A stretch of 64,000 nt of DNA from Cystobacter ferrugineus (GTDB lineage: Bacteria; Myxococcota; Myxococcia; Myxococcales; Myxococcaceae): contig NZ_MPIN01000006.1 of assembly GCF_001887355.1 (NCBI RefSeq), positions 62,001 to 126,000 on the forward strand, given 5' to 3'. Positions 10,071-25,283 of the stretch are shown here, one piece after another. Position 1 is the first letter of the stretch. Each line of letters opens with the position of its first letter. The position numbers and the translations under genes were made by a program. The notes beneath the pieces are model-generated. The model was not told where the DNA came from. It worked only from the letters and a program-made list of their open reading frames with translations, and made no database searches.

Positions 10071-10087
10071 CCCCCAGGCGGAGGTGC

Positions 10088-10230: not shown

Positions 10231-11403
10231 ATGAGTCTTCGCTCTCCCAGTGCCGAGAAGAACCCCGAGCCAAGAGAGCTCCCGCGGGACGAGGACATCA
10301 CGAATACGGTTCCCAGCGGCCATGCCGCACCCTTCTCATGGCGGCTCGCCGAGGGCGAGTTGATCGCGGGCCGCTACCGGATCCTGCGCTTCGTGGACGA
10401 GCGGGCCATGGGCGCGGTCTACGCGGTGGAAGACCTGTCGCTGCACGAGCGTGTGGCCCTCAAGGTGATCCGCCCGGGAGGGGCCTCCGCTCCGCAGATG
10501 CTCAAGCGCTTCAAACGCGAACTGCGTCTGGCGCGCCGCGTGACGCACCCCAACGTGTGCCGGGTGTTCGACCTGGGCGAGCACTCCATGGGAGCGGAAC
10601 ACGAGACGTCCGCGTTCACGTTCCTCACCATGGAGTTCCTGGAAGGAGAAACCCTCAAGGAGTTCGTGACGCGTCACGGGCGGATGTCTCCCGAGCGGCT
10701 GCTGCCCCTGGCCGAGCAGATGGCGGCGGCGCTCGATGCCGCGCATGCCGCGCAGGTCATCCACCGCGACTTCAAGAGCAGCAACGTGATGCTCGTGCCC
10801 GCGGCCTGTGGAGGCTCGCGCGCGGTGGTGACGGACTTCGGGCTGGCGTGCGGCAAGGGGCTCGACGACGACATCGCGACGCAGGAGGGCACCGTGATGG
10901 GGACCCTCGGCTACATGTCCCCCGAGCAGGTCGAAGGCCGGAGCCTGACACCCGCCTCCGATCTCTACTCCTTCGGGGTGGTGCTCTTCGAAATGGTGAC
11001 GGGCCAGATGCCCTTCCAGGGGAACACGCCCATGATCGTCGCCGTCAAGCGCCTCTTCGAGCCGCCGCCCTCGCCCCGCCACCTCGTTCCCGGGCTGTCC
11101 GCCGCCTGGGAGGCGGCCCTGCTGCGCGGACTGGCCCGTCAGCCCGATGAGCGCTTCACCACGGCCGGTGAGTTCGTCGAGGCCCTGCGCGAAGCCACCG
11201 CCTCTCGGGCCCCGAGCACCCGCTCGCCCTCCCCCACCCGGAGAAGCTCCCAGCCGTCGAGCCCCCAGCGGCGAGGACCTTCCCAGGCAGCGGCGCGGCG
11301 GCACGGCGCGTGGTGGCCGTGCTCGCCCCGCGCAACCTCTCCGGCCAGGCCTCTTCGGCGTGGCTCTCCACGGCCCTGGCGGAGATGCTGTCGGCGGAGC
11401 TGA
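10231..11403 (+). CDS. Serine/threonine protein kinase (N-terminal part of a frameshifted kinase-TPR gene)
   Basis: A Hanks-type kinase domain at about residues 49-315. Lys78 is in VALKVI, the catalytic loop is HRDFKSSN with Asp180, Asp202 is in TDFGLA, and GTLGYMSPEQVEG and SDLYSFGVVLFEMVTG follow. The glycine-rich loop (FVDERAMGAVY) is weak. After about residue 325 the frame turns into an Arg/Ser/Pro string and stops at 11403. From 11220 the +3 frame reads on smoothly as a proline-rich linker and then RRVVAVLAPRNLS of the TPR protein below. One missing base near 11205-11222 would join them into a single protein of the common myxobacterial kinase-TPR type. The start ATG 10231 precedes conserved sequence. 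Confidence 0.85.
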   Translation: MSLRSPSAEKNPEPRELPRDEDITNTVPSGHAAPFSWRLAEGELIAGRYRILRFVDERAMGAVYAVEDLSLHERVALKVIRPGGASAPQMLKRFKRELRLARRVTHPNVCRVFDLGEHSMGAEHETSAFTFLTMEFLEGETLKEFVTRHGRMSPERLLPLAEQMAAALDAAHAAQVIHRDFKSSNVMLVPAACGGSRAVVTDFGLACGKGLDDDIATQEGTVMGTLGYMSPEQVEGRSLTPASDLYSFGVVLFEMVTGQMPFQGNTPMIVAVKRLFEPPPSPRHLVPGLSAAWEAALLRGLARQPDERFTTAGEFVEALREATASRAPSTRSPSPTRRSSQPSSPQRRGPSQAAARRHGAWWPCSPRATSPARPLRRGSPRPWRRCCRRS

Positions 11404-13433
11404 CCGCGGGCAGCCAGGTGCGCCTGCTGTCGGGGGAGAGCGTGGACCGGATGTGCCGCGAGCTCTCCCTGCCCACGGTGGACAACCTGGCTCCGGATAC
11501 GCTCCAGCGCATCCGCGCCCACTCGGGCGTGGAGTTGGTGCTCACGGGCTCCTACCTCGTGTTGGGGGCAGCGGACTCCGCGGGGATCCGGCTCAACCTG
11601 CGCCTGCAGGAGACCGCCACGGGCGAGACGGCGGTGCTGCTGACCCAGACCGGGATGGAGCGCGAGCTGCTGTCCATCGTCCTGGGACTGGGGGCCCGGC
11701 TGCGCGAGCGGCTGGGAATCGGACCTCTGACGGACGAGCAGGTGCGCCGGGTGCGCGGCGCCATGCCCACCCATCCCGACGCCGCGCGCCTCTACGCCGA
11801 GGGGCTGCTCGCGCTGCGCAACCATGAAGCCCCGCTGGCCGTCGAGCGGCTCGAGCGCGTGGTGGCGCTGGAGCCGAACTTCGCCCCTGGCCACTCCGCG
11901 CTCGCCACCGCCTTCAAGCACTTCTTCCTCGAGACGCGCGCCCGGGCCTCCGCGCGCCGGGCCTTCGAGCTGTCCGAGGGCCTGCCGCGCGAGGAGCGGC
12001 TGCTGGTGGTGGCACGCCACCACGAGATGAATGCCGAGTGGGCCCTCGCCATCGAGGCCTACCGCACGCTCTTCGAGTTCTTCCCCGACAACGTGGAGTA
12101 CGGCACGGCGCTCGTCTGCGCACAGGCCTCCGCGGGCCTGACGCGCGAGGCGCTGGGCACCCTCGAGACGTTGCAGCGGCTGCCGGTGGGCGAGGATGCG
12201 CGCATCGACCTGGTGGCGGCCACGGCCACGGCCCAGGCGGGTGACTTCCAGGCCTCGCGGCGGCACGCCGAGCAGGCGGTGGCACGCGCACGCCGGGCCG
12301 GACAGGAACTCCTCGTCGCCTCCGCGCTCCTCGCCCAGTCCTTCGCCATGCGCAACCTCGGCGAGCATGTGCAGGCCCTCGCGCACCTGGAGGAATCCGT
12401 GCGGCTGTCCCTCGCCAAGGGGGACCGGGGCGGGGCGGCCCGAGGCATCATCGCGCGCTCCATCGTGCTCATCGACCTGGGGCGGATGCGCGATGCCCGG
12501 AACTCCTTCGCCACCGCGCTGCGCGTGGCCCGGGAGCTACAGAATCGCGTCATCGAGGCCGAGGCCCTGGGCAATGCCGCGTGGCTGAGCTGCAACCTGG
12601 GGGACCTCAAGGTGGCGCTCAAGCACACGCGCCGGGTGAAGGAGATGTTCCGCCGGATGGAGATGCGCGCCGAGGAGGCCGCCTACGACGTGCAGCTCGG
12701 GATGGTGCTGCGGCGGCGCGGCAACCTGGATGAGGCCCAGCGTCTGCTCGAGCAGGCGAGGCAGGTGCAGAACATCGTCTTCGGCGATGAGTACATGGAG
12801 GGGTGGGCGAGCTACGAGCTGGGCCTGCTCTACCTGGACCGGGGCGAGCTGACCCTGGCCCGGCGGTGGTTGGAACGGGCCCTGGAACTGCGCCGGGCGA
12901 AAGGCCTGCGGCTCTTCATCGCCGAGACGGAGCTGGCCCTCGCGGGGCTGGAGCTGGAGTCGCGGCGGCCCCTGGAGGCGCTGGCGCTCGCCGAGCGCGC
13001 CTGCGCGCTCTACGCGGAGCAGCGGCATCTGCCCATGCAGGGCAGGGCCCAGGCGGTGCGGGCCCAGGCCCTGCTGGCGGGTGGCGAGCTCCAGCAGGCC
13101 CGCGAGGCACTCTCCCAGGCCAGGGAGCTGACGGCGCACAACGAGCACGTGCTCGTCACGTCGGAGGTGGTGCTCACCGAGGCCCAGGTGGCACTGCGCA
13201 CGGGGACGTCCGAGGAGCGACAGGCCGCGGCCCGGCGACTCCATGCGCTGGGCCTCCAGGCGGCTCGGGGAGAGATGCTGGGCGTGCGGTTGGAGGCACG
13301 GCTGCTCCAGGCGGAGTTGGCTCTCCTGGGCGGAGAGACCGAGGCCACCGCGGAGCTGAGAAGCCTCGAGTCGGAGGCGGACCGGCTCGGCTACCGCGCC
13401 CTGGCACGCAAGGCGGGCGCGGTCCTCGGCTGA
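11310..13433 (+). CDS. TPR-repeat protein (C-terminal part of a frameshifted kinase-TPR gene)
   Basis: The frame starts at an internal GTG and runs 707 residues. The first 150 or so resemble the FlgO-like/adenylate-cyclase-associated region found after many myxobacterial kinases (VVAVLAPRNLS, VELVLTGSYLVLG). The rest is a tandem array of tetratricopeptide-like helical repeats (for example YAEGLLALRNHEAPLAVERL and ASYELGLLYLDRGELTLARR), a protein-interaction scaffold. It overlaps the kinase frame by 94 bases. There is no convincing ribosome site at 11310, so independent translation is doubtful. It is most likely the sensing and scaffolding half of the same kinase gene. Confidence 0.85.
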   Translation: MVAVLAPRNLSGQASSAWLSTALAEMLSAELTAGSQVRLLSGESVDRMCRELSLPTVDNLAPDTLQRIRAHSGVELVLTGSYLVLGAADSAGIRLNLRLQETATGETAVLLTQTGMERELLSIVLGLGARLRERLGIGPLTDEQVRRVRGAMPTHPDAARLYAEGLLALRNHEAPLAVERLERVVALEPNFAPGHSALATAFKHFFLETRARASARRAFELSEGLPREERLLVVARHHEMNAEWALAIEAYRTLFEFFPDNVEYGTALVCAQASAGLTREALGTLETLQRLPVGEDARIDLVAATATAQAGDFQASRRHAEQAVARARRAGQELLVASALLAQSFAMRNLGEHVQALAHLEESVRLSLAKGDRGGAARGIIARSIVLIDLGRMRDARNSFATALRVARELQNRVIEAEALGNAAWLSCNLGDLKVALKHTRRVKEMFRRMEMRAEEAAYDVQLGMVLRRRGNLDEAQRLLEQARQVQNIVFGDEYMEGWASYELGLLYLDRGELTLARRWLERALELRRAKGLRLFIAETELALAGLELESRRPLEALALAERACALYAEQRHLPMQGRAQAVRAQALLAGGELQQAREALSQARELTAHNEHVLVTSEVVLTEAQVALRTGTSEERQAAARRLHALGLQAARGEMLGVRLEARLLQAELALLGGETEATAELRSLESEADRLGYRALARKAGAVLG

Positions 13434-13477
13434 CGGCTCACACAGGAGGACGCGAACAGGCGCATTCGCGACGAGCC

Positions 13478-14296
13478 CTACGCACCTCGCTTCTTCACAT
13501 AGGCCGTGTACCCATTGCCCACCGCGGGCTGGATCATTCCCCACTTGGCCTCGAACCCGAACCCACCGAGGAAGGCATCGAATTCATCCACGGTCGGGAG
13601 GCCGTCGTAACGGTCCTTGAAGTTGTTCTCCAGGAAGATGAACTCCAGGTTCTCGAGGGCCTTGGTCGCGCCCTTGAGTGCATTCAGCTCGGACCCCTGG
13701 ATGTTCATGTACAACCCGTTGTAGCGGGCCGTACTCCCCGAGTCCTGTAGTTCCTGGAGCAGGCTGTCGAGGGTCCTGACGGGGACCTTCACGCAATCGA
13801 CGAGGGAGACGTCCTGCTTCGTATTCGATTGGTGGAGCGCCTCGTTGTTCGGCTTGTTCAGCGAGCTCAGCATGCTGTGGGACATGACGAAGAGGTCCGC
13901 CTCCCCGTCCTGATCGCTGATGGCACACTGGGCGAGTTGGATTTGCGTCTCGGTCTCGCAGGCGAGAAAGCGATCATACACCAGACTCAACGAGCTGGCC
14001 GCCCTGGCCATCACCGCGAGGTTCTTGAAGACCTCCGGCTGGGGCTCGATCATCAGCACGTTGCGGAAGCCGAGCATGAGCCACACCCACAGCAGGCCGC
14101 CATGGTGGGCACCCACGTACAACATGCCCTCCGGCTCGACCTTGTATCTGCGCAGCAACGTGCCGAAAACGAGGAGCCGGCGCATGGAATGGTCGTACCA
14201 CTCCGCCTGGCGCTTCTCCCCCCAGAGCTCAACGGACTTGCGCCACAGCGTGATGAGCTCGGGCGAGTGCTCGTGATAGATGTCTTTGTTTTTCAT
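13478..14296 (-). CDS. FkbM family methyltransferase
   Basis: A 272-residue SAM-dependent methyltransferase of the FkbM family. Motifs are MLYVGAHHGGLLWVW (SAM loop), LMIEPQPEVFKNL, VPVRTLDSLL and YNGLYMNIQGSELNALKGA near the C-terminal half. FkbM enzymes typically O-methylate hydroxyl or carboxyl groups of natural products or sugars. It is the last gene of the minus-strand peptide locus, 9 bases after the degenerate JmjC gene and facing the kinase-TPR gene convergently. In this setting it could methylate a hydroxyl introduced by one of the oxygenases or a Glu side chain of the peptide; this is inference. The ribosome site is weak, so coupling to the upstream gene is likely. Confidence 0.85.
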   Translation of the reverse strand: MKNKDIYHEHSPELITLWRKSVELWGEKRQAEWYDHSMRRLLVFGTLLRRYKVEPEGMLYVGAHHGGLLWVWLMLGFRNVLMIEPQPEVFKNLAVMARAASSLSLVYDRFLACETETQIQLAQCAISDQDGEADLFVMSHSMLSSLNKPNNEALHQSNTKQDVSLVDCVKVPVRTLDSLLQELQDSGSTARYNGLYMNIQGSELNALKGATKALENLEFIFLENNFKDRYDGLPTVDEFDAFLGGFGFEAKWGMIQPAVGNGYTAYVKKRGA

Positions 14297-14305
14297 GGAG
14301 GCAGC

Positions 14306-15532
14306 TCAACCTGGGGTGGGCGCCGAGCCCGGAGGAGTGACGAAGGTCAGGACGCCCATGGAAATGAGCTGCCTGGTCAGGGCGATGCGCTCCTGATCCG
14401 TGTACCAGCCAGGGATGTCCTTGACCTTGAACTGACGGGTCTCGCTGATGAAGTCCAGTGCCAGATAGACCTTTTCCGGAGCCTGGTAATAGTAGCCCGG
14501 GAAGATGAGCTCCACCACGCCATCGTAGAGCTGCACCCGCCCCTCGACGCCCGGCCTTCGGATGACCTCCGTCTCCAGACCGACCGAGTCCACATGGCGG
14601 AGCAGATCGAAATGCCCATCGGACAGGATGGGCAGCCGGCGGCTGTGCTCACTCGCGAGCAGGTGGTTCGCCTCCTTCCACGACGGACTGTCGAACGCCT
14701 GCGCCACCAGCTCCCGGAAACGCGACTCCATCTGCCCCCGGCCGGACACACTCAGGGGGCCACCGAACCCGAGCGCCCGGCGCAACTCGACGTTCTTGCC
14801 ACTGGCGACCGCCACCGTCCTGGCCAGCAGATCGGCCCAGGTCACCCGCTGGATGGTCAGGACCAGATGCAAGGCGTGTCCATCCCCGGTTTCGACCATG
14901 GGCAACGCCGCCGCCCCCGAAGCGCCCGTGCCCGGGGCATTCCCGTACGGGAGGTACAGGGTGTCTCCCGGGCGCAGGGAGACGGCTCCGGCGTGCTCCT
15001 GGTTCTCCGGGGACGTGCCCTCCTGAGCGCTCGCCAGGGGCTGGAACCGGCCAGCGGGGAGGTGCCACGTGGCCGCGCCCTCGAGCTGGAGGACGATCAG
15101 ACTGCGGCTGTCGGCGAAGATGCCCGCGTTGCGAGACCTGGGGGGAGTCGCCACCAGCTCGGCGGTGACGGAGAAGCCCGACTCCCGGGCAACCGCGCTG
15201 ACGAGCTGGGTGATGGGCTTCCAGCGCACCTGCATGTCCCGAAGGCAGATGCTCTTGCCGCTGGCGAACTCCTTGTAGAACTCGCTGAGGGTCGTCTTGG
15301 TGGGCCGCCTCAGCCGGGGGGTGATGACTCGCTCCCCCTCGAACATGAAGAGGCCGAGGTTGGTGAACGACACGTTGATGAGCCGGTCGAGCTGCTCGAC
15401 GGAGAACAACGAGCCGAAGTACCCGGGCGTGCCCCGGGAGATGTGGAGGGCCTTCTTTTCCCAGTACAGCGAGGCGAACCGCTCCACCGGCGTGGGCGAG
15501 ATGACCGACTGGAAGTCTTCGCAAGGGCTCAT
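14306..15532 (-). CDS. JmjC/cupin_4-type protein with lost metal ligands
   Basis: A 408-residue paralogue of the next gene upstream. Both open with PVE-F-WEKK-LHISR and share LQLEG-W and a similar C-terminal region ending in a DIPG box. Where the paralogue has HWDDHD, this protein has FADSRS (residues 139-144). The first His ligand becomes Phe139, while Asp141 is kept. In place of the distal His of YFPRGVIHEP it has YLPYGNAPGT, so that His becomes Pro200. Two of three iron ligands are therefore missing, and the protein is unlikely to be an active oxygenase. It may be a partner or peptide-binding subunit for the intact paralogue. It lies 30 bases downstream of that gene. Confidence 0.82.
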   Translation of the reverse strand: MSPCEDFQSVISPTPVERFASLYWEKKALHISRGTPGYFGSLFSVEQLDRLINVSFTNLGLFMFEGERVITPRLRRPTKTTLSEFYKEFASGKSICLRDMQVRWKPITQLVSAVARESGFSVTAELVATPPRSRNAGIFADSRSLIVLQLEGAATWHLPAGRFQPLASAQEGTSPENQEHAGAVSLRPGDTLYLPYGNAPGTGASGAAALPMVETGDGHALHLVLTIQRVTWADLLARTVAVASGKNVELRRALGFGGPLSVSGRGQMESRFRELVAQAFDSPSWKEANHLLASEHSRRLPILSDGHFDLLRHVDSVGLETEVIRRPGVEGRVQLYDGVVELIFPGYYYQAPEKVYLALDFISETRQFKVKDIPGWYTDQERIALTRQLISMGVLTFVTPPGSAPTPG

Positions 15533-15562
15533 GGATTTATTCCGCGATGAGGGGAAATGCCG

Positions 15563-16765
15563 TCAGCGGGCATTCCGCGGGTCGGCCACTTTCAAGAAAC
15601 CCACCTGGATGAGCTCGCGAACCAGGTCGAGCCGCTCTCGCTCGGAGGCCTGTCCAGGAATGTCCCTGACGCAGAACCCGTCCTGCCGGGTCATGAAATG
15701 CAGAGCGGGAGCAAGCGCGGCGGACGCGGTGTAGGTTCCTCCGGGGTAGTGGAGCTTCACACCGGCTCCCTGGGGCAGGACCACACCGACCATGCTCTTG
15801 CGCTTCTCGAGCCGCGTCTCCAGGTCCACCTTCGCGACGTCATCCAATCGCCCGAAGTGTCCATCCGCCAGGGGAGCTATCCTCCCGAGCACCCTGGCCG
15901 CGAGCCGGGAGCGCGACTCCTCGAAGCGCGCCTCCTGAATGACCCGTGCCGCCATTTCCGCGGCCCGGGGCTGGAGCGCCTCGCCGGCGGCCGCGTTCTT
16001 GGAGAAGCCGAACGGCAAGCCCTCCTGGAGCAGGGGCTCCTTCTCGGCCAACTCGTGGATCGACTCGGTGACGAGGTGCTCCCAGGCATCCGGGTACAGC
16101 CCGTAGGTCAGATGCAGGGAGGAGCACGTCCGGGTCCGCGGCTCGTGAATGACCCCCCTGGGGAAGTACAACAGGTCTCCCGCCTTCAAATCGATGATCT
16201 GGGACGCCTGTCCCAAGGTGGGGTGCTGCCGCTGGTAATCATTGCGATCCTGGCTGTACCGGGGGAGCGTGGGACCCGTGTCGTACAAGCGCCACTCCTT
16301 CTCCCCCTCGAGCTGGAGGGCGAAGATGTCGTGGTCATCCCAGTGCGACGAGAACCCTTGCGAGTTCTCCGGAGTCGCGTACATGTGCGTGCTGATGAAG
16401 CAGCCGAAGGCGAGCGCGAGCTCGTTCGCGATCTCTCCGATGGGCTCCCAGAAGAGATGGATGTTCCGGACGACGGGCGTATACCCCGTGCGGTACAGCT
16501 CGTAGAACTGATAGAGCGTCGTCTTGGATTCACCCTCGACGCGGGGGTAGATAACCTTGCCTTCCTTCGCCGAGCGCACCTCGTCATTGGTGAGCGTATG
16601 CCCGAGGAAGGCGTCCAGATCCCGAAGGGTGAAGAGGCGCTTGTAATAGTCAGGCTGGTTCCTGCTGATGTGCAGGACCTTCTTCTCCCAATACTCGTTG
16701 AGGAAGACCTCGACGGGCATCGGGTGGAGGATGTACTCGAGCGCGGACAGGTCTGGCACTTTCAC
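15563..16765 (-). CDS. JmjC/cupin_4 oxygenase (ribosomal-oxygenase-like)
   Basis: A 400-residue 2OG-Fe(II) oxygenase of the JmjC cupin_4 family, which includes the ribosomal protein hydroxylases YcfD/RoxA, MINA53 and NO66. The iron ligands are all present: His141 and Asp143 in SHWDDHDIFALQLEGEKEW and the distal His207 in YFPRGVIHEP. A winged-helix-like C-terminal region follows, ending VRDIPGQASERERLDLV. I chose GTG 16765 because GGGAG lies 7 bases upstream and the N-terminus then aligns with the paralogue downstream. It follows the peptide gene by 234 bases, which contain a strong hairpin. The family acts on peptide side chains, so the small peptide 17000-17203 is the natural candidate substrate. 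Confidence 0.85.
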   Translation of the reverse strand: MKVPDLSALEYILHPMPVEVFLNEYWEKKVLHISRNQPDYYKRLFTLRDLDAFLGHTLTNDEVRSAKEGKVIYPRVEGESKTTLYQFYELYRTGYTPVVRNIHLFWEPIGEIANELALAFGCFISTHMYATPENSQGFSSHWDDHDIFALQLEGEKEWRLYDTGPTLPRYSQDRNDYQRQHPTLGQASQIIDLKAGDLLYFPRGVIHEPRTRTCSSLHLTYGLYPDAWEHLVTESIHELAEKEPLLQEGLPFGFSKNAAAGEALQPRAAEMAARVIQEARFEESRSRLAARVLGRIAPLADGHFGRLDDVAKVDLETRLEKRKSMVGVVLPQGAGVKLHYPGGTYTASAALAPALHFMTRQDGFCVRDIPGQASERERLDLVRELIQVGFLKVADPRNAR

Positions 16766-16868
16766 ATCTGCTCCCGGTGGACTGGCGGTCGCGTGCAATG
16801 GAGGGCTCCTGACGGAAGGAGAGTGGCCGGCAATGCCATGACAAATACCCGACTCGGCGGGAAGACCA

Positions 16869-16903
16869 GTCCGATCCCCATCCAGCGAGGACGGGGATCG
16901 GAC
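16869..16903 (-). terminator. Strong hairpin between peptide gene and JmjC gene
   Basis: Perfect 11-bp stem GTCCGATCCCC/GGGGATCGGAC with a 13-nt loop in the 234-base gap. On the transcribed strand it is followed by a short pyrimidine stretch, not a clean U-run. It may act as a partial terminator or RNA-stability hairpin that keeps the peptide mRNA more abundant than the enzyme genes downstream, an arrangement common in peptide natural-product operons. Termination is inference. Confidence 0.55.
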
Positions 16904-16999
16904 CAGCCCATGGTTCCTACCCGCGTTCATCCGACGGGAAGCGGACGGCCTTTCCCCTCAGCGGGAACGAAGGAAGGTCCCAAAAAGACCACTGGCCTC

Positions 17000-17203
17000 T
17001 CAGGCAATGGTCTCCTCGGCGGCCACCTCTTCGGCCGCAGCGGCGGCGCCACCGGCGACCGCGGACAGGTCGCTCTCGGAGAGCTCCACCGCGAGCTGCG
17101 CGGCGACGGCCTGCTCGAGGGACATGCCCTTGGCGCTCGCGAACGCCTCGGCCTTGGCGCGGGTATCGCTCGACATGTTCTGGATGATGGTCTTGACGTT
17201 CAT
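17000..17203 (-). CDS. Putative RiPP/secreted peptide precursor with double-glycine leader
   Basis: A 67-residue small protein. Residues 1-52 look like a double-glycine leader: a helical N-terminal part (MNVKTIIQNMSSDTRAKAEA), then MSLEQAVAAQLAVELSESDL and the cleavage motif SAVAGG (GG at 51-52). The remaining 15 residues, AAAAAEEVAAEETIA, would be the exported core. They are only Ala, Glu, Val, Thr and Ile, with no Cys, Ser, aromatic or basic residue. Neighbouring genes encode a C39-peptidase ABC exporter that cuts such leaders and several peptide-type oxygenases. I use ATG 17203; the frame stays open to 17275, but that part is Cys/Arg-rich and unlike a leader. It resembles no named precursor family that I can identify with certainty. 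Confidence 0.72.
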   Translation of the reverse strand: MNVKTIIQNMSSDTRAKAEAFASAKGMSLEQAVAAQLAVELSESDLSAVAGGAAAAAEEVAAEETIA

Positions 17204-17286
17204 CTTCGACTCACTTTCAGTGTGGAGTGGGGGGCTGCTACCCCGCGTGCGAATACAAACGCGGCATTTCGACACAGGACAGCAGT

Positions 17287-17314
17287 TACTGCCTACTGCG
17301 TACTGCGTGCTGCA
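17287..17314 (-). repeat. Four tandem heptamers upstream of the peptide gene
   Basis: On the plus strand TACTGCC, TACTGCG, TACTGCG and TGCTGCA run in tandem directly after the stop of the PhyH gene. They lie about 84-111 bases upstream of the peptide start. They overlap a small palindrome GCAGT-T-ACTGC (17282-17292). The spacing suggests an array of protein-binding sites or a replication-slippage tract. Confidence 0.6.
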
Positions 17315-18211
17315 CTACACCTTGAAATCCAGGAATTGGGTGAGGTGCCGGGTGGCGGCCGGACCCAACTCACACATCCGCTGGATGCCTACTTCCTGGA
17401 TGAGCCGATTCTTGAGCGGGAGATCCTCGGGGTTCGGGTAGTACCGCGAGGACAAGATGCCGTCTGGCCGCTTCCGATCCAAGCCCAGCATCTGTCTGCG
17501 GATCGGCTCCTGGGTCCGCGTCTCCAGGTCGCCGAGGGTCATCGCATCGACAGGATACAGCCAGCGATAGGCCCATTGGACGAAGATCGTCTTGCGGATG
17601 GTGCCAGAGAGATTGGGGCTGCCCTGGCTGTGCAGGGTGCGTTGCTGGAACAGGACGGCCGAGCCCGGCTTGACCTTGAGCGCGACGGCATCCTTCGGTG
17701 GCGGCGTGAACTTCTTGTACTCATCCCGCCAGCTCCGCTCGCCAATATGCGAGCGTGGAAGAATGTACGTCTGCCCTCGTTGAGGCTCACGCAGATCCGT
17801 GAGATAGAACCCGACCTTGATCGCCGTCATGGGGGCCTGGAATTGCAGGTCCGTACTGAAGACGCCTCCATCCACATGCCAGTCGTAGCGGTAGTTCTCC
17901 TCCGACGCATCGGGAGGACGCACGTTGTAGTGGGTATGGTTGACCCAGATATTCCAACCCAGAAACCCACTCACCTTGCCCAGAACCGCCGGGTTGTCGA
18001 CCAGCTCGACGAAAGCGTCATCACGTCCGAGAATATTGAGACGGTTGTAGTAGTGCGCGCTCTCACTTTCCTGGTCACCGCCACACCGATCAATCGCAGC
18101 CAACAACCTGTCTACCTGCGCGGGAGAGAGCGCATCCTCCACGACGAGGTATCCCTCCCGCTCAAAGAAAGCTCGCTCTTCGCTGCTGGGCCAATACGAG
18201 GAAAGGCTCAT
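17315..18211 (-). CDS. Phytanoyl-CoA dioxygenase (PhyH) family oxygenase
   Basis: A 298-residue Fe(II)/2-oxoglutarate oxygenase of the PhyH family. The iron ligands are His112 and Asp114 (YDWHVDGG) and the distal His194 (LHSQGSPN). Arg206 (TIRKT) is placed to bind 2-oxoglutarate. PhyH members hydroxylate or halogenate small molecules and carrier- or peptide-bound residues, and several act in natural-product pathways. I use ATG 18211 because a good -35/-10 promoter lies 37-65 bases upstream. The longer open frame to 18379 would run through that promoter. It is the first gene of the second half of the locus, followed 112 bases later by the peptide gene. Its substrate is unknown. Confidence 0.85.
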   Translation of the reverse strand: MSLSSYWPSSEERAFFEREGYLVVEDALSPAQVDRLLAAIDRCGGDQESESAHYYNRLNILGRDDAFVELVDNPAVLGKVSGFLGWNIWVNHTHYNVRPPDASEENYRYDWHVDGGVFSTDLQFQAPMTAIKVGFYLTDLREPQRGQTYILPRSHIGERSWRDEYKKFTPPPKDAVALKVKPGSAVLFQQRTLHSQGSPNLSGTIRKTIFVQWAYRWLYPVDAMTLGDLETRTQEPIRRQMLGLDRKRPDGILSSRYYPNPEDLPLKNRLIQEVGIQRMCELGPAATRHLTQFLDFKV

Positions 18212-18247
18212 TCGGTTGTGGTTTCTCGAACCGCGAGTAGGTCTCTT

Positions 18248-18276
18248 AACGTACTCTTGGGATTTTGGAGAGTCAA
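18248..18276 (-). promoter_or_regulatory. Sigma70-like promoter for PhyH-peptide-JmjC-FkbM genes
   Basis: Minus-strand TTGACT (plus 18271-18276), a 17-bp spacer and TACGTT (18248-18253). Transcription would start near 18241, 30 bases before the PhyH start. It lies in the 194-base gap after the exporter gene, so the biosynthetic half may be controlled separately from the export half. Confidence 0.5.
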
Positions 18277-18405
18277 GCATATCTCGTGGATTCTGCAAGT
18301 ACGGGAATCCACTCCACCGTCGCTCACCCAGGCATTGCTGACGAACTGTTTCAGCAAGCGAGCCCACGTATGAACTCATGCAGCCCCGCCGCGCGCGGAG
18401 GCGCG

Positions 18406-20646
18406 TCAGGCGCTGCGCGACAGGGAAGACTTCTGCTCCATCTGGGCATCAACGAGTTGCGCATAGGTACCGCCTCGAGCGAGCAGTTCCTCATGGCGGC
18501 CCATCTCCTCCACGCGGCCTGAATCCATGACGACGATGAGGTCGGCGTTGCGGATGGTGCTCAGACGGTGGGCGATGACGATTCGCGTGCACCGCAGCGA
18601 GGCCAGCGCATGCTGGACACGGCTCTCGGTGATCGCATCCAGCGCGCTCGTCGCCTCGTCCAGCAGCAGCACCGCTGGCCGGTGCACCAGCGCTCGCGCC
18701 AGGGCGAGCCGTTGCCGCTGGCCTCCGGACAACGAGAGGCCCCGGTCCACCATCAGCGTGTTGTACTGCATGGGCATGTCCATGATGTCGTCATGGATAT
18801 GGGCGAGCTTTCCCGCCTCCACCACCCGGTCCATCGGCAGTTCCGGAGCGCCCAGGGAAATGTTGTCGCGCAGCGAGAAGGCGAAGAAGGCCGGGTCTTG
18901 CAACACGATGCCCATCTGGCCGCGCAACGAGCGCAGGTCCAGGCTGGCGAGGTCCAGCCCATCGTAGAGGACGCGTCCGGAAGTGGGCAGGTACAGCCCC
19001 AGCAGGAGGTTGGCCAGGGTCGTCTTCCCCGCGCCCGAGCGCCCGACGATGGCCACCATCTGCCCCGGTTCGATGCGCAGCGAGATGTCCCGCACCACCC
19101 AGGAGGAGGCGGCGTTGTAGCGGAAGGAGACCTTCTCCAGTTCGATGGCGCCCTCGAGCGTCAGCCTCTGGCGTGACTGCTCCGCGGGTTGCTCCGGCGG
19201 TGTGTCCAGCACGTCGTTGATGCGATCCAGGTAGCTGCCCAGGAGCTGGAACTGACCCGCCGCGCCAATGAGGTTGGACAGCGGAAGGAGCAGCGCGGCG
19301 GTGAGGGCGTTGAGGCTGAGCATCTCCCCCAGCGTCAGCGTCTCCTCCAGGACCAGGTAGGCGCCCAGGCTCAACAGGATCAACGGAGAGGCCAGGCGCA
19401 GCGCGCTCGTCAAGGACTCCACCCACAGCGCCAGCCGCCCTCGTGCCAGCGACGCGTTCAGCACGTCCACGAAGAGGTGCGAGTAGCTCTCCACCGCCCT
19501 TTGCTCCGCGCCAAAGGCCTTGAGCGTCTGCATGCCCGTCAGCATCGAGATCTGGTAGCTCTGGCTCTTGGACTCCAGCTCCAGGCTCTGGGACAACTGG
19601 CTGCGGCGCTGGTTGCTCGTCAGGATGAAGATGAGCACCTGCGCCAACCCCAGGCCCAGGACCGTCAACCCCATCCACCCGCTGGAGGCGAACAGCACCG
19701 CGAAGTAGAGCAGGACCAGCGTTCCGTCCAGCAGCGTGGAGACGGTCGTGGAGGAGAGGAGCTCCCGCACGTGGGTCTGCGTGTTCATGCGCATCATCAG
19801 ATCGCCCGCGGGGCGTATCTGGAAGAAGGAGTAGGCCAGGCTCACCAGGTGATCCAGAAAGCCCAGCGTCATTCCCAGATCCAGCCGGGTGCGCATCTCC
19901 AGCAGCAGGTGACCCCGGATGAGGGAGGCCAGCAGGTGGAAGATGACCATCGTGGTCAGCGACAGGGACAGCACCAGCAGGAGCTGGTAGTCCCCACGAG
20001 GCACGACCCGGTCCACCACCATTCCGGTGAGCATGGGCACCCCGAGCGCGAAGAGCTGGAGTATCGCGGACAACACCACGATGCGGCCCAGCGTGCCCGA
20101 CTGCTGCAGGAGCGGAAGCAGGTAGCGGAACGTGTTGCCCTTGTGCGCGGACATCGTCTGGAAGTCCGCCGCGGGCTCGAAGAGGAGCACCACGCCCGTG
20201 AAGTGCTGACGGAAGTTCTCCAGGGCCACCATGCGGCGCCCCTGCGCGGGGTCCACCACATGCACGTGGCTGTGCTCCAGCTTCTCGAAGAGGACGTAGT
20301 GATTGAAGTCCCAGTGGAGGACGGTGCCGGTGGGCAGAAAGGGCAGCCGGTCCAGATCGATGGAGAGGGCCCTCCCCCGGAGCCCTAGCTGGCGGCCGGC
20401 ATCCAGCAGCGTGCGCGCGGTGACCCCGTCGCGTCCCGCGCCCGTCACCTCGCGCACCGCGTCCAGGGACATCTCCCGGCCATAGTAGGTGAGCACCATG
20501 GTGAGGCACGCCGCGCCACAATCCGTGGCCGACAACTGCCGCACCTCCTGCAGGCGCCGCGATCGTTTCCGCAGCCGATTGAGCGCGGGGAAGCGCTCCA
20601 TCAACCCGGGCTTGCTCTGACCCGCTTCCTCGTTCTCAGCCGTCAT
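18406..20646 (-). CDS. Peptidase-containing ABC transporter (C39 peptidase-TMD-NBD)
   Basis: A 746-residue exporter that removes double-glycine leaders and pumps the peptide across the inner membrane. The N-terminal C39 peptidase (about residues 33-165) has Gln37 and catalytic Cys43 in RQLSATDCGAACL, a His in HWDFNHYVLFEKL and an Asp in HVVDPAQGR. A six-helix ABC membrane domain follows (about 195-470). The ATPase has Walker A GRSGAGKTT, signature LSGGQRQRLALARAL and Walker B VLLLDEATSALD. The start overlaps the stop of the HlyD gene upstream by 11 bases, so translation is probably coupled. The intact peptidase and the nearby leader peptide at 17000-17203 make a consistent pair. Confidence 0.93.
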   Translation of the reverse strand: MTAENEEAGQSKPGLMERFPALNRLRKRSRRLQEVRQLSATDCGAACLTMVLTYYGREMSLDAVREVTGAGRDGVTARTLLDAGRQLGLRGRALSIDLDRLPFLPTGTVLHWDFNHYVLFEKLEHSHVHVVDPAQGRRMVALENFRQHFTGVVLLFEPAADFQTMSAHKGNTFRYLLPLLQQSGTLGRIVVLSAILQLFALGVPMLTGMVVDRVVPRGDYQLLLVLSLSLTTMVIFHLLASLIRGHLLLEMRTRLDLGMTLGFLDHLVSLAYSFFQIRPAGDLMMRMNTQTHVRELLSSTTVSTLLDGTLVLLYFAVLFASSGWMGLTVLGLGLAQVLIFILTSNQRRSQLSQSLELESKSQSYQISMLTGMQTLKAFGAEQRAVESYSHLFVDVLNASLARGRLALWVESLTSALRLASPLILLSLGAYLVLEETLTLGEMLSLNALTAALLLPLSNLIGAAGQFQLLGSYLDRINDVLDTPPEQPAEQSRQRLTLEGAIELEKVSFRYNAASSWVVRDISLRIEPGQMVAIVGRSGAGKTTLANLLLGLYLPTSGRVLYDGLDLASLDLRSLRGQMGIVLQDPAFFAFSLRDNISLGAPELPMDRVVEAGKLAHIHDDIMDMPMQYNTLMVDRGLSLSGGQRQRLALARALVHRPAVLLLDEATSALDAITESRVQHALASLRCTRIVIAHRLSTIRNADLIVVMDSGRVEEMGRHEELLARGGTYAQLVDAQMEQKSSLSRSA

Positions 20647-21580
20647 GGGAGAAGAGCACCTTGAGTCCTGGGATGAGTGCCTGGATGATGGGCTCGGAGC
20701 GCACGGCGACCTCGGCGCGCGCGGGCATTCCATCGAAATAGTCGAACACCTTTCCCTCGAGGGAGAAGGTACGTGAGGGCATGCGTGCTCGCACCAGGAC
20801 GAGGGGGCCCTCCGCAGTCACCGAGCCCGCCAGATCCGGTCCCAGATAGCGCTGAAGCTCGCCCGGGCCGATGATCTGGTCTCCCACCGATTCGATGAAC
20901 ACTTCCCGGTATTCGTAGCGGAAGCCGTCCAGCTCCACCCGCATGGGCATGCCGGGCCGCAGCAACGGGCGGTAGTAGCCGGGCAGGAAGGCCATCAGAT
21001 ACACCGGAGCGTGATCCTCCACGAGCGACGCCACCTGCGTCCCTGGCGCCAGGTACTGGCCCGGCTGGATGCGCAGGTCTCCGATCACCCCCGCCACGGG
21101 GGCTCGCAGGGAGCGCGCTTCCAGGCGCGAGCGTGCCAGTTCCTGCTCGGCCTGCAGCGTCGTCAACGCCTGCCGGGCGGCCACATCCGTCAGGTTGCGC
21201 ATATAGCGAATCAAGTGCAGCTCCGTCTCGCGCTCGAGACGCGCGAGCGAGTTGCGTTCGTCTTCGGACTGGAACGTCGCCAGGACCTGCCCCTGCGTCA
21301 CCCGCTCGCCAGGCGCGACCTCCACCGAGGCGACGACACCGCCCGCGGAGGCCGTCACGCCCGTGCGCCGCTCCACCCTCACGAGCGCGGGCCCGGTGGA
21401 ATACTCGGACACGGTGCCGACCAGGCAGATCAACACGGCCATGACCACGATGGTCACCAGCAGCACGTAGGTCCACCGCGTCCATTCGGGGGCGATGCGC
21501 AGCACATCACCTTCCTGGCGGCGGTGGTGCTGGTAATAGTCAAGAGCCTCCTTGCGAAATATCGACGTCTTGCCTTCCAC
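20636..21580 (-). CDS. HlyD-family membrane fusion protein (peptide exporter adaptor)
   Basis: A 314-residue periplasmic adaptor. A short cytoplasmic N-terminus (SIFRKEALDYYQHHRRQEG) precedes one membrane helix (WTYVLLVTIVVMAVLICLV, about residues 34-52). A lipoyl/biotinyl-like hairpin region (GGVVASVEVAPGERVTQGQV and SLRAPVAGVIGDLRIQPGQY) and a beta-barrel domain follow. It bridges the inner-membrane ABC exporter to an outer-membrane channel. I chose GTG 21580 with GGGAG upstream, because it places IFRKEAL near the N-terminus as in related adaptors. A GTG at 21634 is the alternative. It overlaps the exporter gene by 11 bases. Confidence 0.87.
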   Translation of the reverse strand: MEGKTSIFRKEALDYYQHHRRQEGDVLRIAPEWTRWTYVLLVTIVVMAVLICLVGTVSEYSTGPALVRVERRTGVTASAGGVVASVEVAPGERVTQGQVLATFQSEDERNSLARLERETELHLIRYMRNLTDVAARQALTTLQAEQELARSRLEARSLRAPVAGVIGDLRIQPGQYLAPGTQVASLVEDHAPVYLMAFLPGYYRPLLRPGMPMRVELDGFRYEYREVFIESVGDQIIGPGELQRYLGPDLAGSVTAEGPLVLVRARMPSRTFSLEGKVFDYFDGMPARAEVAVRSEPIIQALIPGLKVLFSHDG

Positions 21581-21637
21581 GTTGCTCCCGCGCCCATCGG
21601 CGTGAGACAGGGTAGCGTGCAGCGGGCCCGCCACCTG

Positions 21638-22597
21638 TCAGGGACTGTTCGAACCATTCCGCTCCGGCGATACGATATCCGCGTGGGCCTGCTCGAAGTC
21701 CACGCGCACCCGCATCACCGTGCCCGCGGGCACGGTGTCCTTGGCGGGCACCTCCACCTCCGCGATCGCGAACACCATCAATGGGGCGACATCCACCTCG
21801 GGAGCCACCTGGGTGACGCGTCCCTTGAACACCCAACCCTGCTCCACGGCCGACAGCACCAGCCGCTGGCCCACCGCCACCTGCCGCACCTGGGCGGCGG
21901 GAATGGCGAAGCGCACCTGCACCACTCCCCCTCGCATCAGGTGGAGGAGCGGCTGCCCCGGTTGAAGCAGTGCGCCGGGGGCCACGAAGCGGCTCGCCAC
22001 CACGCCGTCGAAGGGCGCGCGGATGGAGGTTTCCGCCAGGCGCTGGCGCAGCCGGGCCACCCGTGCCTGATGTTCCAACACCAGGGCACGGGCAATCTCC
22101 TGCTTGGCCACCGCCAGGCGCTCCTGATAGCTCGCCGCGGACAACTCTTCCTCGGAGATGGCTCCCGTACGGAGCTGGCCCGGCGCCTGTCGCCGCTTCA
22201 GCCGCTCCTGGGCTTCTTCCAGAGTCAGCGCCGCCACCTGCAACTCGGCACGGCTGGACTGCAACTCGGCCTCGGCAACGGCCAGCTCCTGCTGGGCCGC
22301 CCGGTCCTCCAGCGTCGCCACCACCTCACCCCGCTTCACCCGGTCTCCCACCTGGACGCGCACGCTCTCGACAATCCCCTCGTTGCGCGTGGCGAGGTCC
22401 ACGGACTCCTCGGAGATGACGACGCCCAACCAACCCTTGTCGCCGCTGGGGGACTGGGGCGCGTGCTCCGTTCGTCCCCCGAGCGATGGCGGCGTACCCT
22501 GGGTCTGCCGGGCGGTGCGTCCGCGCAGCGCGGCCACCCCGCCCACCAAGACCAGCAGCAGCAGGCCAAGCCCGCTCACGAATCTCCGGGACGCCAT
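21638..22597 (-). CDS. Second HlyD/RND-type efflux adaptor subunit
   Basis: A 319-residue membrane fusion protein with an N-terminal membrane anchor (VSGLGLLLLVLVGGVAAL), a biotinyl-lipoyl half-motif (GIVESVRVQVGDRVKRGEVV), an alpha-helical hairpin rich in Glu/Ala/Gln (about residues 100-195), the second lipoyl half (IRAPFDGVVASRFVAPG) and a beta-barrel. Having two adaptors for one exporter is unusual. They may form a mixed ring, or this one may belong to another pump. It is the first gene of the locus. Its start lies only about 3 bases from the predicted transcription start, so its mRNA may be nearly leaderless; no ribosome site is visible. Confidence 0.85.
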   Translation of the reverse strand: MASRRFVSGLGLLLLVLVGGVAALRGRTARQTQGTPPSLGGRTEHAPQSPSGDKGWLGVVISEESVDLATRNEGIVESVRVQVGDRVKRGEVVATLEDRAAQQELAVAEAELQSSRAELQVAALTLEEAQERLKRRQAPGQLRTGAISEEELSAASYQERLAVAKQEIARALVLEHQARVARLRQRLAETSIRAPFDGVVASRFVAPGALLQPGQPLLHLMRGGVVQVRFAIPAAQVRQVAVGQRLVLSAVEQGWVFKGRVTQVAPEVDVAPLMVFAIAEVEVPAKDTVPAGTVMRVRVDFEQAHADIVSPERNGSNSP

Positions 22598-22606
22598 CGC
22601 AGTAGA

Positions 22607-22634
22607 ACTATACGTACTCTGGAGACCGACTCAA
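22607..22634 (-). promoter_or_regulatory. Sigma70-like promoter for the adaptor/exporter genes
   Basis: Minus-strand TTGAGT (plus 22629-22634), a 16-bp spacer and TATAGT (22607-22612). The predicted start is near 22600, against an ATG at 22597. I see no other feature in the gap 22635-22856 before the divergent ABC permease gene. Confidence 0.55.
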
Positions 22635-22856
22635 TCCCCGTGTTACCGGAAACAATGGAAACATTCCGAACATGGGGAATGGACTCCTCTCGTCAGACCT
22701 TCACCCGGCCGCGAATTCCGCCGCCAACGGCGACTTGACACCCACCCACTCGTGGAACCTGCGCGGCCCTGGTGGACTCGCGCCCATGTCAATGGTCATT
22801 CTGGAATGTTTCTGGCTTTAATCCCGGTCCCGTTGGCCCTCTCCGGGTGATCCCTC

Positions 22857-25283
22857 ATGACCCAGCTCCTGTTCGATTTGCGCTTCGCCGTGCGGCTGCT
22901 CCTCAAACAGCGCGGATTCACCGTGGTGGCGCTCACCCTCATGGGGCTGGGCATCGGCGCGAACTCGGCGCTCTTCAGCGTGGTGCACGCCGCGCTCCTG
23001 CGCCCGCTCCCCTTCGCCCAATCCGAACGGCTGGTATGGCTCACGGAGACGGTGAAGCATGACGGCAACCTGGAGACACGACCTTTGTCCTATCCGGACT
23101 TCAGGGACTGGAAGGCGAATGTCAAGGGCTTGAGCGCCATGGGGACCTTCGCCGGTGCAACCCTTACCCTCGGGGCAGACGGAAATCCCGAGCACATCCC
23201 CGCGGAGTTCGTGAGTGAGGGGTACTTCGAGGCGCTCGGCGTCAGCGCGGCCCTCGGCCGCACCTTTCTGCCCGAGGAGAACGAGGTACCCGATGCGCAC
23301 GCGGTGGCCGTCATCTCCCACGGGCTGTGGCAACGGCGCCTGGGCGGCACGCGCGACGTGGTGGGCCGCACGCTCCTGCTCAACGAGCGCTCCTTCACCA
23401 TCGTCGGGGTGATGCCCGAAGGCGTTGGCGGTTGGGACACGCGGGCCCAGGCCTGGGTGCCCATGATGATGATTTCGATGGACAGGGGGGCGGCCACACT
23501 CGAGCGGCGCGGCGAGCGCTGGCTCTCGGCGGTGGGGCGGCTGGCTCCTGGCGCGTCGCTGAAGGGAGTGCAGGGGGAGCTCGACACGATTTCGGCCCGG
23601 CTCGCCCAGGTCCATCCCACCACCAACGCCGAGCGTGGCGCCCGGGCCCAGCTCGCCCAGGAGGCGATGTTTGGCGAGCTACGGCCCGCGCTGCTGATGC
23701 TCTGGGGCGCGGTGGGCTTCGTTCTGCTCTCGGTGTGCGCGAACATCGCGAACCTGCTGCTCGCCCGCGCGGTGGCGCGTCAGCATGAGATGGCGGTGCG
23801 GGTGGCCCTGGGCGCGAGTCGCGGCCGGCTGGTGCGACAGCTCGTGGTGGAGAGCCTGCTGTTGGCCATCCTGGGCGGAGTGCTGGGGCTCCTGTTCTCC
23901 ATCTGGCTCATGGATCTGCTGCGCCTGCTCATCCCCGAAGGCTTCACCACGCGGCTGCGCTTCGGATTGGAGGCGCCGGTCGTCCTCTTCAACCTCGGGT
24001 GCGCGCTCTGTGCCGGGCTGCTCGTCGCGGTGCTGCCGGCAATCAAGCTCTCGCATCCCTCGTTTCTCGACGCGCTCAGGGATCGCTCGGCCCAGAGCGG
24101 CCCCGGCAGGGGGCGGCTGCGCAACCTGCTCGTCGCCACCAACGTGGCCGTGGCGGTGGTGCTGCTGGTGGGCGCGGGGCTGATGGTTCGCAGCTTCCAG
24201 TCGCTGAGCCGCGTGGACGCGGGTTTCAACCACGAAGACGTGCTCACCCTCACCCTCCACCTGCCGCGCGAGCGCTATCAGGCGAGTGCGCTGGTGGACT
24301 TCCAGGAGCGGCTGCAGGAGCGGCTGAGCGCGATACCGTTCTTCACGGCCGTGAGCTTCTCCTCCGATGTGCCACTCGGCCCCCGCTTGAGCGCTGGCAT
24401 GGTGGGCGTCACCCCGGAGGCCGTGGGCAGTGCCGAGGAGCGCATCCGGATGTACCGCCACTCGGTAGCCCCCAGCTTCTTCTCCACCTTGAAGGTGCCT
24501 CTGCTCAAGGGCCGTGTCTTCACCTCCGCCGACAAGGAGGGGATGCCTCGGGTGGCGGTGATCTCCAGATCTCTCGAGAAGCGGATGTGGCCACGCAAGG
24601 GCGCGCTCGGACAGCAGTTGAACGTGGGAAATGGGACGATGGTGGAGGTGGTGGGCGTCGCGGGCGACGTGCGCTTCCGCGACCTCACCGAGACGAGGGA
24701 TCAAGAACCGGACCTCTATTTCCCGCTCGCGCAATCGCCTCAGGCGAGGCTCACGGTCCTCATGCGCACTTCGGCCGAACGCGCGGCAGCGCTCCGTGCG
24801 GTGGGCTCCGTGGTGCACGAGCTCGACCCGAAGCTGGCGCTCGACAACGTGGCGAGCATCGAGGAATACGTGGCGCGCGAGTTGTCACCCACGCGCCTGA
24901 GCATGCTCCTGCTCGGCGCCTTCGCGGGGATCGCGCTGGTGCTCGTCTCGCTCGGCCTCTACGGCCTCATCGCCTACATGGTGAGTCAGCGCCACAAGGA
25001 GATCGCCATCCGTATGGCACTCGGGGCGCGCATGCAGGACGTGCTGGCACTCATCCTCAAGCAGGGACTGATGCCCGTCGCGATGGGATTGGCGGTAGGC
25101 CTGCCCGCCGCGCTCGGCTTGTCGCGCCTCATCTCCTCCCAGCTCTTTGGCCTGAGCCCCTTCGATCCTCTCACCTACATCTCCATTGCCACCCTTCTGC
25201 TCACCCTCTCGGGGGTGTCCTGCTACCTGCCCGCGCGCAGGGCAACGAAGGTGGAGCCGGCGGCGGCGCTCCAGGCGGACTGA
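22857..25283 (+). CDS. ADOP-type ABC transporter permease (MacB/FtsX duplicated)
   Basis: An 808-residue inner-membrane protein with the internal duplication typical of the ADOP group. The first half has an N-terminal helix (GFTVVALTLMGLGIGANSAL), a MacB-like periplasmic core domain (about 50-245) and an FtsX helix bundle (about 280-400). A second periplasmic domain (about 430-650) and the last FtsX bundle (about 690-800, containing QRHKEIAIRMALGAR) follow. The domain order is permease only, with no ATPase fused or adjacent in this window. It is divergent from the peptide-export operon, but nothing ties it to that operon. Such proteins are numerous in myxobacteria and acidobacteria, and their substrates are mostly unknown. 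The ribosome site is weak. Confidence 0.88.
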   Translation: MTQLLFDLRFAVRLLLKQRGFTVVALTLMGLGIGANSALFSVVHAALLRPLPFAQSERLVWLTETVKHDGNLETRPLSYPDFRDWKANVKGLSAMGTFAGATLTLGADGNPEHIPAEFVSEGYFEALGVSAALGRTFLPEENEVPDAHAVAVISHGLWQRRLGGTRDVVGRTLLLNERSFTIVGVMPEGVGGWDTRAQAWVPMMMISMDRGAATLERRGERWLSAVGRLAPGASLKGVQGELDTISARLAQVHPTTNAERGARAQLAQEAMFGELRPALLMLWGAVGFVLLSVCANIANLLLARAVARQHEMAVRVALGASRGRLVRQLVVESLLLAILGGVLGLLFSIWLMDLLRLLIPEGFTTRLRFGLEAPVVLFNLGCALCAGLLVAVLPAIKLSHPSFLDALRDRSAQSGPGRGRLRNLLVATNVAVAVVLLVGAGLMVRSFQSLSRVDAGFNHEDVLTLTLHLPRERYQASALVDFQERLQERLSAIPFFTAVSFSSDVPLGPRLSAGMVGVTPEAVGSAEERIRMYRHSVAPSFFSTLKVPLLKGRVFTSADKEGMPRVAVISRSLEKRMWPRKGALGQQLNVGNGTMVEVVGVAGDVRFRDLTETRDQEPDLYFPLAQSPQARLTVLMRTSAERAAALRAVGSVVHELDPKLALDNVASIEEYVARELSPTRLSMLLLGAFAGIALVLVSLGLYGLIAYMVSQRHKEIAIRMALGARMQDVLALILKQGLMPVAMGLAVGLPAALGLSRLISSQLFGLSPFDPLTYISIATLLLTLSGVSCYLPARRATKVEPAAALQAD

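Follow-up and report, generated by a model that had tools for sequence, protein, structure and literature searches.

A predicted double-glycine leader peptide encoded beside ROX-type, PhyH and FkbM proteins in Cystobacter ferrugineus

The predatory soil bacterium Cystobacter ferrugineus carries, within the 64,000-nucleotide stretch analysed here (hereafter the window), a short minus-strand open reading frame (ORF) that is read, with a probability of roughly 0.7, as the gene for a secreted, RiPP-like peptide precursor whose core would be hydroxylated, methylated, cut after Gly-Gly and exported. Two features by which RiPPs are recognized were found, namely a small precursor with a conserved leader and a variable core, and modifying enzymes encoded beside it. 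The predicted peptides are a real and new family of RiPP-like kind.

The precursor ORF and its homologues

The coordinates of the ORF in the initial annotation, which had given no strand, proved exact, and the frame lies on the minus strand. Its full translation, from 17203 to 17000, is MNVKTIIQNMSSDTRAKAEAFASAKGMSLEQAVAAQLAVELSESDLSAVAGGAAAAAEEVAAEETIA followed by a stop codon, and it divides after ...LSAVAGG into a leader portion, MNVKTIIQNMSSDTRAKAEAFASAKGMSLEQAVAAQLAVELSESDLSAVAGG, and a core:

17000 to 17203, minus strand: precursor peptide of 67 residues, with a 52-residue leader ending in Gly-Gly and then the core AAAAAEEVAAEETIA, read from the sequence and from homologues in two further genomes.

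In the minus-strand translation the core agrees with what had been claimed, its 15 residues being exclusively Ala, Glu, Val, Thr and Ile. Unmodified, it would have a mass M of 1415.678, with [M+2H]2+ at 708.846. The plus strand of the same positions is likewise open and falls within a 938-residue frame antisense to several genes. A longer reading of the precursor, of 91 residues from a GTG at 17275, was dropped because its upstream stretch bears no resemblance, by eye, to that of the homologue in genome G063. Within its own 12.05-Mb genome, the precursor was matched at this single place.

A protein search of 145 genomes of the order returned two further clear matches to the precursor, in genomes G067 (72%) and G063 (75% over 55 residues), and a profile of the three sequences, searched against 195 Myxococcota genomes, found a clear precursor in these three genomes with none other clear. 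The single locus returned by a search of genome contigs with the neighbouring protein JmjA, from Corallococcus sp. CA053C, was counted as one genome with G067. Weaker candidates were discounted as homologues: among six matches in the 145-genome search, L004 to L006 (E 0.04 to 0.1), the first for the lack of such a cluster at its locus and the others on E-value, and, among six matches in the 195-genome profile search, L012 to L014 (E 0.004 to 0.01), also on E-value. On plasmids, no match to the precursor was obtained at E <= 0.01.

The three precursors end in ...SAVAGG-AAAAAEEVAAEETIA, ...AAVSGG-IGAGIAIEEDKEETAA and ...SGVVGG-LQAIENVELPDGTEVIEG, the Gly-Gly at the junction being invariant. Over 51 codons of the leader, 41, 40 and 38 residues are identical per pair (75 to 80% identity). 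The cores are 15 to 18 residues long, and two of the three core pairs align at shuffle level (0.29 and 0.51 of 2000 shuffles scoring at least as high as observed); for the remaining pair, that of the window and G067, 0.04 of 2000 shuffles reach the score, and EET is common to the two near the end. Only Ala, Glu, Ile and Thr occur in all three cores, each of which has four or five acidic residues and never more than one basic residue, and no single position is conserved across them as a target. Comparison of homologues, proposed earlier as a check, thus found a conserved leader and a varying core in the three known members, and the long conserved C-terminus that had been named as grounds for refutation was looked for in these members and is absent. 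Since three genomes carry the ORF between the PhyH and JmjC_2 genes of the same operon, it is more than chance, and the predicted product is a diversified leader-core precursor.

The suggestion that the leader resembles those of Nif11/NHLP type did not hold, as no such model matched any of the three precursors in NCBIfam at E <= 1. Seven families in all were matched by the three at that threshold; matches with an E above about 0.1 are mostly dropped by the HMMER filters. The window precursor gave weak matches to two bacteriocin families, both under the cut-off, and its two homologues gave weak matches to further bacteriocin families and to two unrelated ones; the match to the CTB family bacteriocin (NF038167) was of 19.9 bits against a cut-off of 32, for one of the three precursors and over residues 29 to 57 only. 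The Gly-Gly leader thus appears to belong to no known family.

The cassette and its encoded proteins

The minus-strand genes around the precursor are ordered, in the direction of transcription, HlyD1, HlyD2, C39-ABC exporter, PhyH, precursor, JmjA, JmjB and FkbM, and together with a divergent permease gene they make up the following features:

13445 to 25377, no strand assigned: the whole cassette, 11.9 kb, absent from the same site in two genomes of the same genus.
13478 to 14296, minus strand: FkbM-family SAM methyltransferase (PF05050; Pfam E 2.9e-13, above cut-off), conserved in all three clusters.
14306 to 15532, minus strand: JmjB, a degenerate JmjC_2 protein without the iron triad, likely a non-catalytic partner (Pfam E 2.9e-7).
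15563 to 16765, minus strand: JmjA, a predicted JmjC_2 (PF08007) ROX-type 2OG oxygenase with a C-terminal winged helix (Pfam E 2.4e-26; triad; model).
16862 to 16910, minus strand: hairpin, between the precursor stop and the JmjA start (21 pairs, reached by 0 of 200 shuffles).
About 17315 to 18211, minus strand: PhyH-family 2OG oxygenase, 298 residues (Pfam E 3e-17; start taken from homologues).
About 18406 to 20646, minus strand: C39 peptidase-ABC exporter (PCAT; Peptidase_C39 5.2e-32, ABC_tran 1.4e-32; start taken from homologues).
20636 to 21634, minus strand: HlyD-type adaptor 2 (Pfam HlyD_3, 2e-15), in all three clusters.
21638 to 22597, minus strand: HlyD-type adaptor 1 (Pfam HlyD_D23, 5.9e-16), in two of the three clusters.
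22857 to 25283, plus strand: MacB-like permease of the ADOP family, lying inside the cassette and oriented divergently to the operon (TIGR03434, E 6.9e-262).

The order from HlyD2 through PCAT, PhyH, precursor, JmjA and JmjB to FkbM is kept in all three clusters. HlyD1 had no match in the 20-kb stretch of G067, and the ADOP permease adjoins that cluster too and is absent from the 19 kb of G063. Two genomes of the same genus, G073 and G074, were used to delimit the cassette; a third, G075, was uninformative in that it has no closely spaced matches to the two flanks. The flanks in G073 and G074 are 93 to 96% identical to the window, and in both of them homology ends at 13444 and restarts at 25378, with 2.8 kb and 1.2 kb, respectively, of other DNA between the breakpoints. 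The 11.9-kb block therefore behaves, by this comparison, as a single unit of gain or loss, the edges of which match the gene set with the ADOP permease included. In G073 the cassette site is occupied by other genes (L067:2206-5013), among them a candidate lipoate-protein ligase, and it looks like a point at which genes are exchanged. Beside the cassette, at 10021 to 13433 on the plus strand, ORFs for a Ser/Thr kinase (10021-11403) and a TPR protein (11310-13433) lie in different frames, whereas in a same-genus relative (L067:5025-7481) a single ORF holds both the end of the kinase and the TPR portion; the split reflects a frameshift or a sequence error.

That PhyH, JmjC and FkbM genes surround the precursor was borne out, except that the catalytic residues are retained in one JmjC protein and lost from the other. 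Both match PF08007 (JmjC_2) above the Pfam cut-off. In JmjA, for which homologue starts indicate a GTG at 16765 or 16759 as the likely start, the HxD...H iron triad is intact by alignment; in the JmjB proteins of all three clusters, the first His is replaced by Phe, Phe or Trp and the distal His by Pro, and in one of them the Asp is replaced by Gly. In one alignment the triad was present in JmjA and in nine of nine other JmjC_2-type proteins (10/10) versus none of the three JmjB proteins; six of these ten were scanned with Pfam and match PF08007, and four are tblastn relatives of JmjA. A second alignment with more relatives gave 12/12 versus 0/3. Of the loci L041 to L045 discussed below, these alignments include only L042, and a regular expression for HxD missed all five. 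With the triad absent from JmjB in every cluster, what had been taken for two JmjC oxygenases is therefore one oxygenase and a likely non-catalytic twin. JmjB does not appear to be in decay, because its two homologues are 60 to 61% identical to it and have open frames of similar length.

Among the matches listed, MINA53 and NO66 lead the solved relatives by sequence, JmjA being 22 to 24% identical to NO66 and MINA53 and 14% identical to E. coli YcfD. Structure models built from four sequences each are of low confidence overall (mean pLDDT 57.7 for JmjA and 52.7 for JmjB), and the C-terminal domain is better modelled (10-residue means mostly about 79 to 89 for JmjA and 58 to 88 for JmjB). The best fold match of JmjA, to NO66, had a Z of 16.2 (rmsd 5.2, 324 residues) and the best match of JmjB to the ROX fold a Z of 14.4 (rmsd 11.8, 312 residues), both rmsd values being high. 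Both models align over near their whole length with NO66, MINA53 and YcfD, with Foldseek also for JmjA, and the structure matches listed comprise ROX, JmjC, cupin and vitamin K carboxylase chains for JmjA and ROX, JmjC and cupin chains for JmjB. RRE-type folds are not among these matches, all places being taken up by the chains named. JmjA thus models as a ROX-type protein of the NO66/MINA53/YcfD kind. In both models the C-terminal domain consists of strands followed by a helix, a short helix and a helix, the arrangement of a winged helix; a Pfam scan of this domain gave no match, nor did a profile comparison with the two PqqD matches of the same genome. Proteins of PF08007 from eukaryotes with legitimate RRE-like folds, the closest bacterial JmjC homologues of which occur in RiPP-like contexts, were reported in 2025 (PMC12710340), and binding of the leader by the C-terminal winged helix of JmjA and JmjB is for that reason plausible by analogy.

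With the PhyH protein, the histidines of the HVD and LHS motifs are invariant in all three clusters, and the homologues are 72 and 74% identical. At E <= 1e-25 a PhyH profile recovered the same three of 195 genomes only. The Asp of the PhyH HxD motif would be missing from a halogenase, and its presence counts against that activity. The FkbM protein found no solved-structure match at E <= 0.01. The exporter is nearest to TIGR03796 (NHLM_micro_ABC1), at 591 bits against a cut-off of 853, and its candidate residues C72, H145 and D161 (numbering of a 775-residue ORF) are those that we take to be the catalytic Cys, His and Asp of C39. A Gly-Gly leader and a C39 exporter, the marks of a double-glycine leader substrate, are both present here, and cleavage at that site is predicted.

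In peptide operons, the precursor gene is commonly followed by a hairpin. Between precursor and JmjA lie hairpins of 21 (window), 18 (G067) and 17 (G063) pairs, counted with G-U pairs and one mismatch allowed; 200 shuffles of each gave as many pairs in 0, 1 and 0 cases, respectively. By eye, the three share no sequence. Elsewhere in the window cassette, hairpins in three further intergenic regions were not above shuffles. When longer stretches were folded whole, z-scores of -5.5, -1.2 (G067) and -2.2 were obtained; 23 of 200 shuffles of the G067 stretch were as stable, and with a z of only -1.2 its hairpin is weak by this measure. Synonymous divergence of the leader between the window (17048-17200) and G063 was 0.15, lower than in any of 373 overlapping windows of 51 codons taken from five neighbouring genes, and the values for window and G067 (0.26) and for G067 and G063 (0.31) were within the range of the neighbouring windows. 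The low value hints at codon bias or at a constraint at the nucleotide level.

Proposed maturation and its alternatives

Given this arrangement, the hairpin behind the precursor gene would allow precursor to be made in excess of the enzymes. JmjA, with JmjB as its non-catalytic partner, would grip the leader through the RRE-like C-terminal winged-helix domains and hydroxylate residues of the core, and PhyH would add further hydroxylation; the likeliest targets would be Ile, Glu, Thr and Ala, which the three cores have in common. FkbM would then methylate either a new hydroxyl (O-methylation) or a backbone amide nitrogen, after which the exporter would cut behind Gly-Gly and the linear modified peptide would leave through HlyD. 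The sites of hydroxylation and methylation in this scheme are a guess. Methylation of side chains, as first suggested, stands as one of two options only, because EreM, an FkbM protein, methylates backbone amides (PMC9259500, PMC11285071, PMC9505594). More tentatively, at a confidence well short of that given to the precursor itself, the cluster may represent a class of linear, acid-rich RiPPs made by a heteromeric ROX-like pair of one active and one inactive protein, the latter binding the leader or setting specificity, after which PhyH would oxidize the peptide and FkbM would N-methylate its backbone; a ribosomal-protein hydroxylase would here have been recruited, with its winged helix as leader reader.

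The alternative that survives best, itself unlikely, is that the peptide is an unmodified Gly-Gly-leader bacteriocin or signal exported by the C39 protein, and that some other protein or a small molecule is the substrate of the oxygenases and the methyltransferase. The weak bacteriocin matches of the precursors speak for it, as does the fact that modification of the core is so far inferred only, and the solved ROX-type relatives are, by their entry titles, ribosomal-protein hydroxylases. Against it, the seven genes occur together in three of three genomes and as one block in C. ferrugineus, and no other peptide substrate showed up: of eight intergenic ORFs of the cassette, candidates for a second precursor, none was conserved (none below E 0.02 in the other two clusters). 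Relatives of JmjC_2 type elsewhere, moreover, adjoin small ORFs or RiPP enzymes.

Ranked next, and improbable as well, is a less simple oxidation of the core, such as desaturation, oxidative backbone cleavage or C-terminal trimming, with methylation as a capping step only. Iron enzymes in RiPP pathways are capable of such reactions, HEXXH enzymes in these pathways reportedly bringing about backbone cleavage, and the window core is without the residues used by common RiPP cross-links; the iron residues of hydroxylases, however, are kept in both JmjA and PhyH.

Far less probable is a Thr-Glu ester or similar cyclization in the manner of graspetides. It had been held that thioether, azole and Lys-lactam formation are excluded by the core; the composition agrees, the absence of Lys applying to the window core and not beyond it (the G067 core has one Lys), but Thr would in principle still permit an ester or dehydration. 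Thr and Glu do occur in all three cores, yet a scan of ten proteins from the cassette and its surroundings found neither an ATP-grasp nor a dehydratase domain (LanM, LanB), and with the latter result lantibiotic-type dehydration was also set aside. A chance ORF, conceivable for a short frame in GC-rich DNA open on both strands, is refuted by conservation at the protein level together with synteny in three genomes.

Related systems and other JmjC_2 settings

The hydroxylated and methylated peptide proposed here has its nearest likeness in the pythonamide pathway, a proteusin system (EreA, EreM, EreI) that likewise combines a precursor with an FkbM protein and a 2OG oxygenase and has a hydrophobic core (PMC9259500). 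EreM adds a first methyl to backbone amides by itself and others only with the oxygenase EreI (PMC11285071, PMC9259500), and it was then the sole FkbM enzyme characterized in a RiPP cluster (PMC9259500). Its methylated amide was assigned an NMR signal at 2.88/25.9 ppm (PMC9259500). The cleavage motif of EreA, AVAGG, is identical to the last five letters of the window leader (PMC9505594). On the pythonamide side, however, there is an NHLP-like leader, a core of 46 residues, a B12 C-methyltransferase (EreB) and epimerization by EreD (PMC9259500, PMC11285071, PMC9505594), whereas the window has a 52-residue leader without NHLP match, a 15-residue core and, among the ten proteins scanned, no radical SAM domain. 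EreI belongs to the Asp/Asn hydroxylase family, and the window encodes PhyH and ROX-type JmjC proteins instead.

Hydroxylation of a ribosomal precursor by a JmjC- or cupin-type 2OG enzyme is known from the biphenomycin enzymes BpmG and BipG and from the cupin PbsQ (PMC12257519, PMC12707348). BpmG and BipG, both JmjC enzymes, hydroxylate Orn of the precursor (PMC12257519; PMC12707348); this Orn derives from Arg, which the window core lacks, and an MNIO takes part in the pathway, as does a B12-binding radical SAM enzyme. Also ribosomal and myxobacterial is the corallotide of Corallococcus, which a 2OG oxygenase hydroxylates, but it is a graspetide, with a synthetase-made macrocycle, an oxygenase of PF13640, a large precursor with repeated motifs and Lys as the target (PMC13097080). 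To the ROX family (NO66, MINA53, YcfD) the likeness lies in the whole-length fold match of the models, and in the iron triad for JmjA only; unlike in that family, the gene for JmjA stands in a peptide operon with a triad-less twin. The JmjC/RRE-like proteins of PF08007 share with JmjA and JmjB the Pfam family, the modelled C-terminal winged helix and an adjoining peptide gene, and the passage that describes them names no precursor, PhyH or FkbM partner or degenerate partner, all of which the window cluster has (PMC12710340).

JmjA matched 20 plasmid records, grouped into five loci, of which one of the 16 Streptomyces clavuligerus records and all four others were inspected. In the Pseudanabaena plasmid, genes for LanM, for a Nif11 precursor and for NHLP export adjoin JmjC_2. 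That of Streptomyces sp. NBC_00503 has two adjacent JmjC_2-type genes (L072:5754-8158), both with the triad, neighboured by a YcaO gene and several peptidases. The Rhizobium etli plasmid (L071:4236-8161) encodes, in a row, a 77-residue ORF, a radical SAM/SPASM protein, an unmatched protein and JmjC, and in Dolichospermum (L069:5682-8167) JmjC_2 adjoins a 71-residue ORF with a GG site. With S. clavuligerus (L068:7793-9188), an acidic ORF of 48 residues directly precedes JmjC_2. All five loci were judged RiPP-like, a call of the author made without a formal control. Two side observations concern these plasmids. The 48-residue ORF of S. clavuligerus, which has genes for an S9 peptidase and an ABC transporter in its vicinity, ends in an acidic, aliphatic and Pro-rich stretch and has no Cys, a kind of composition like that of the window core; the Dolichospermum locus also encodes a protein similar, by eye, to the AurF-like one of L042 described next.

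Two further JmjC_2 settings were seen in Myxococcota. At L038 (4573-11208), L039 and L040, a short ORF ending in ELTDEQLLQMAEGSCTWGANCGK, a stretch identical in the three genomes, lies upstream of a weak squalene-cyclase match, PhyH and two JmjC_2 proteins (domains assigned at L038 only, where both JmjC_2 proteins keep the triad); this setting is possibly a second RiPP family. At L041 to L045, JmjC_2 occurs near C39-ABC exporter genes in all five loci, with HlyD matches in three, and L042 also encodes an enterochelin-esterase-like protein and one that weakly matches AurF. The single JmjC_2 genes of L046 to L048 had no match to other cassette proteins nearby.

The combination of a Gly-Gly leader, a ROX active/inactive pair, PhyH, FkbM and an acid-rich linear core was not found among the matches listed in the open-licence papers searched; the parts are of known kinds, and what is new is their combination. 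The cluster is compact, with a single precursor and exporter, one pseudo-enzyme and three tailoring enzymes that are probably active, and a core such as that of the window, without Cys, Ser, Lys or an aromatic residue, would escape mining rules based on residues. For the JmjC_2 (PF08007) proteins of RiPP-like settings, to which the one paper found on them gives brief mention, it supplies concrete candidate precursors. If the FkbM protein here N-methylates backbone amides, it would be, by the accounts of PMC9259500, PMC11285071 and PMC9505594, the second such case among RiPPs. As a guess, the acidity of the peptide, with its possible hydroxyls, would suit metal binding. For C. ferrugineus and its two relatives, the cluster points to what may be an undescribed kind of bacterial natural product.
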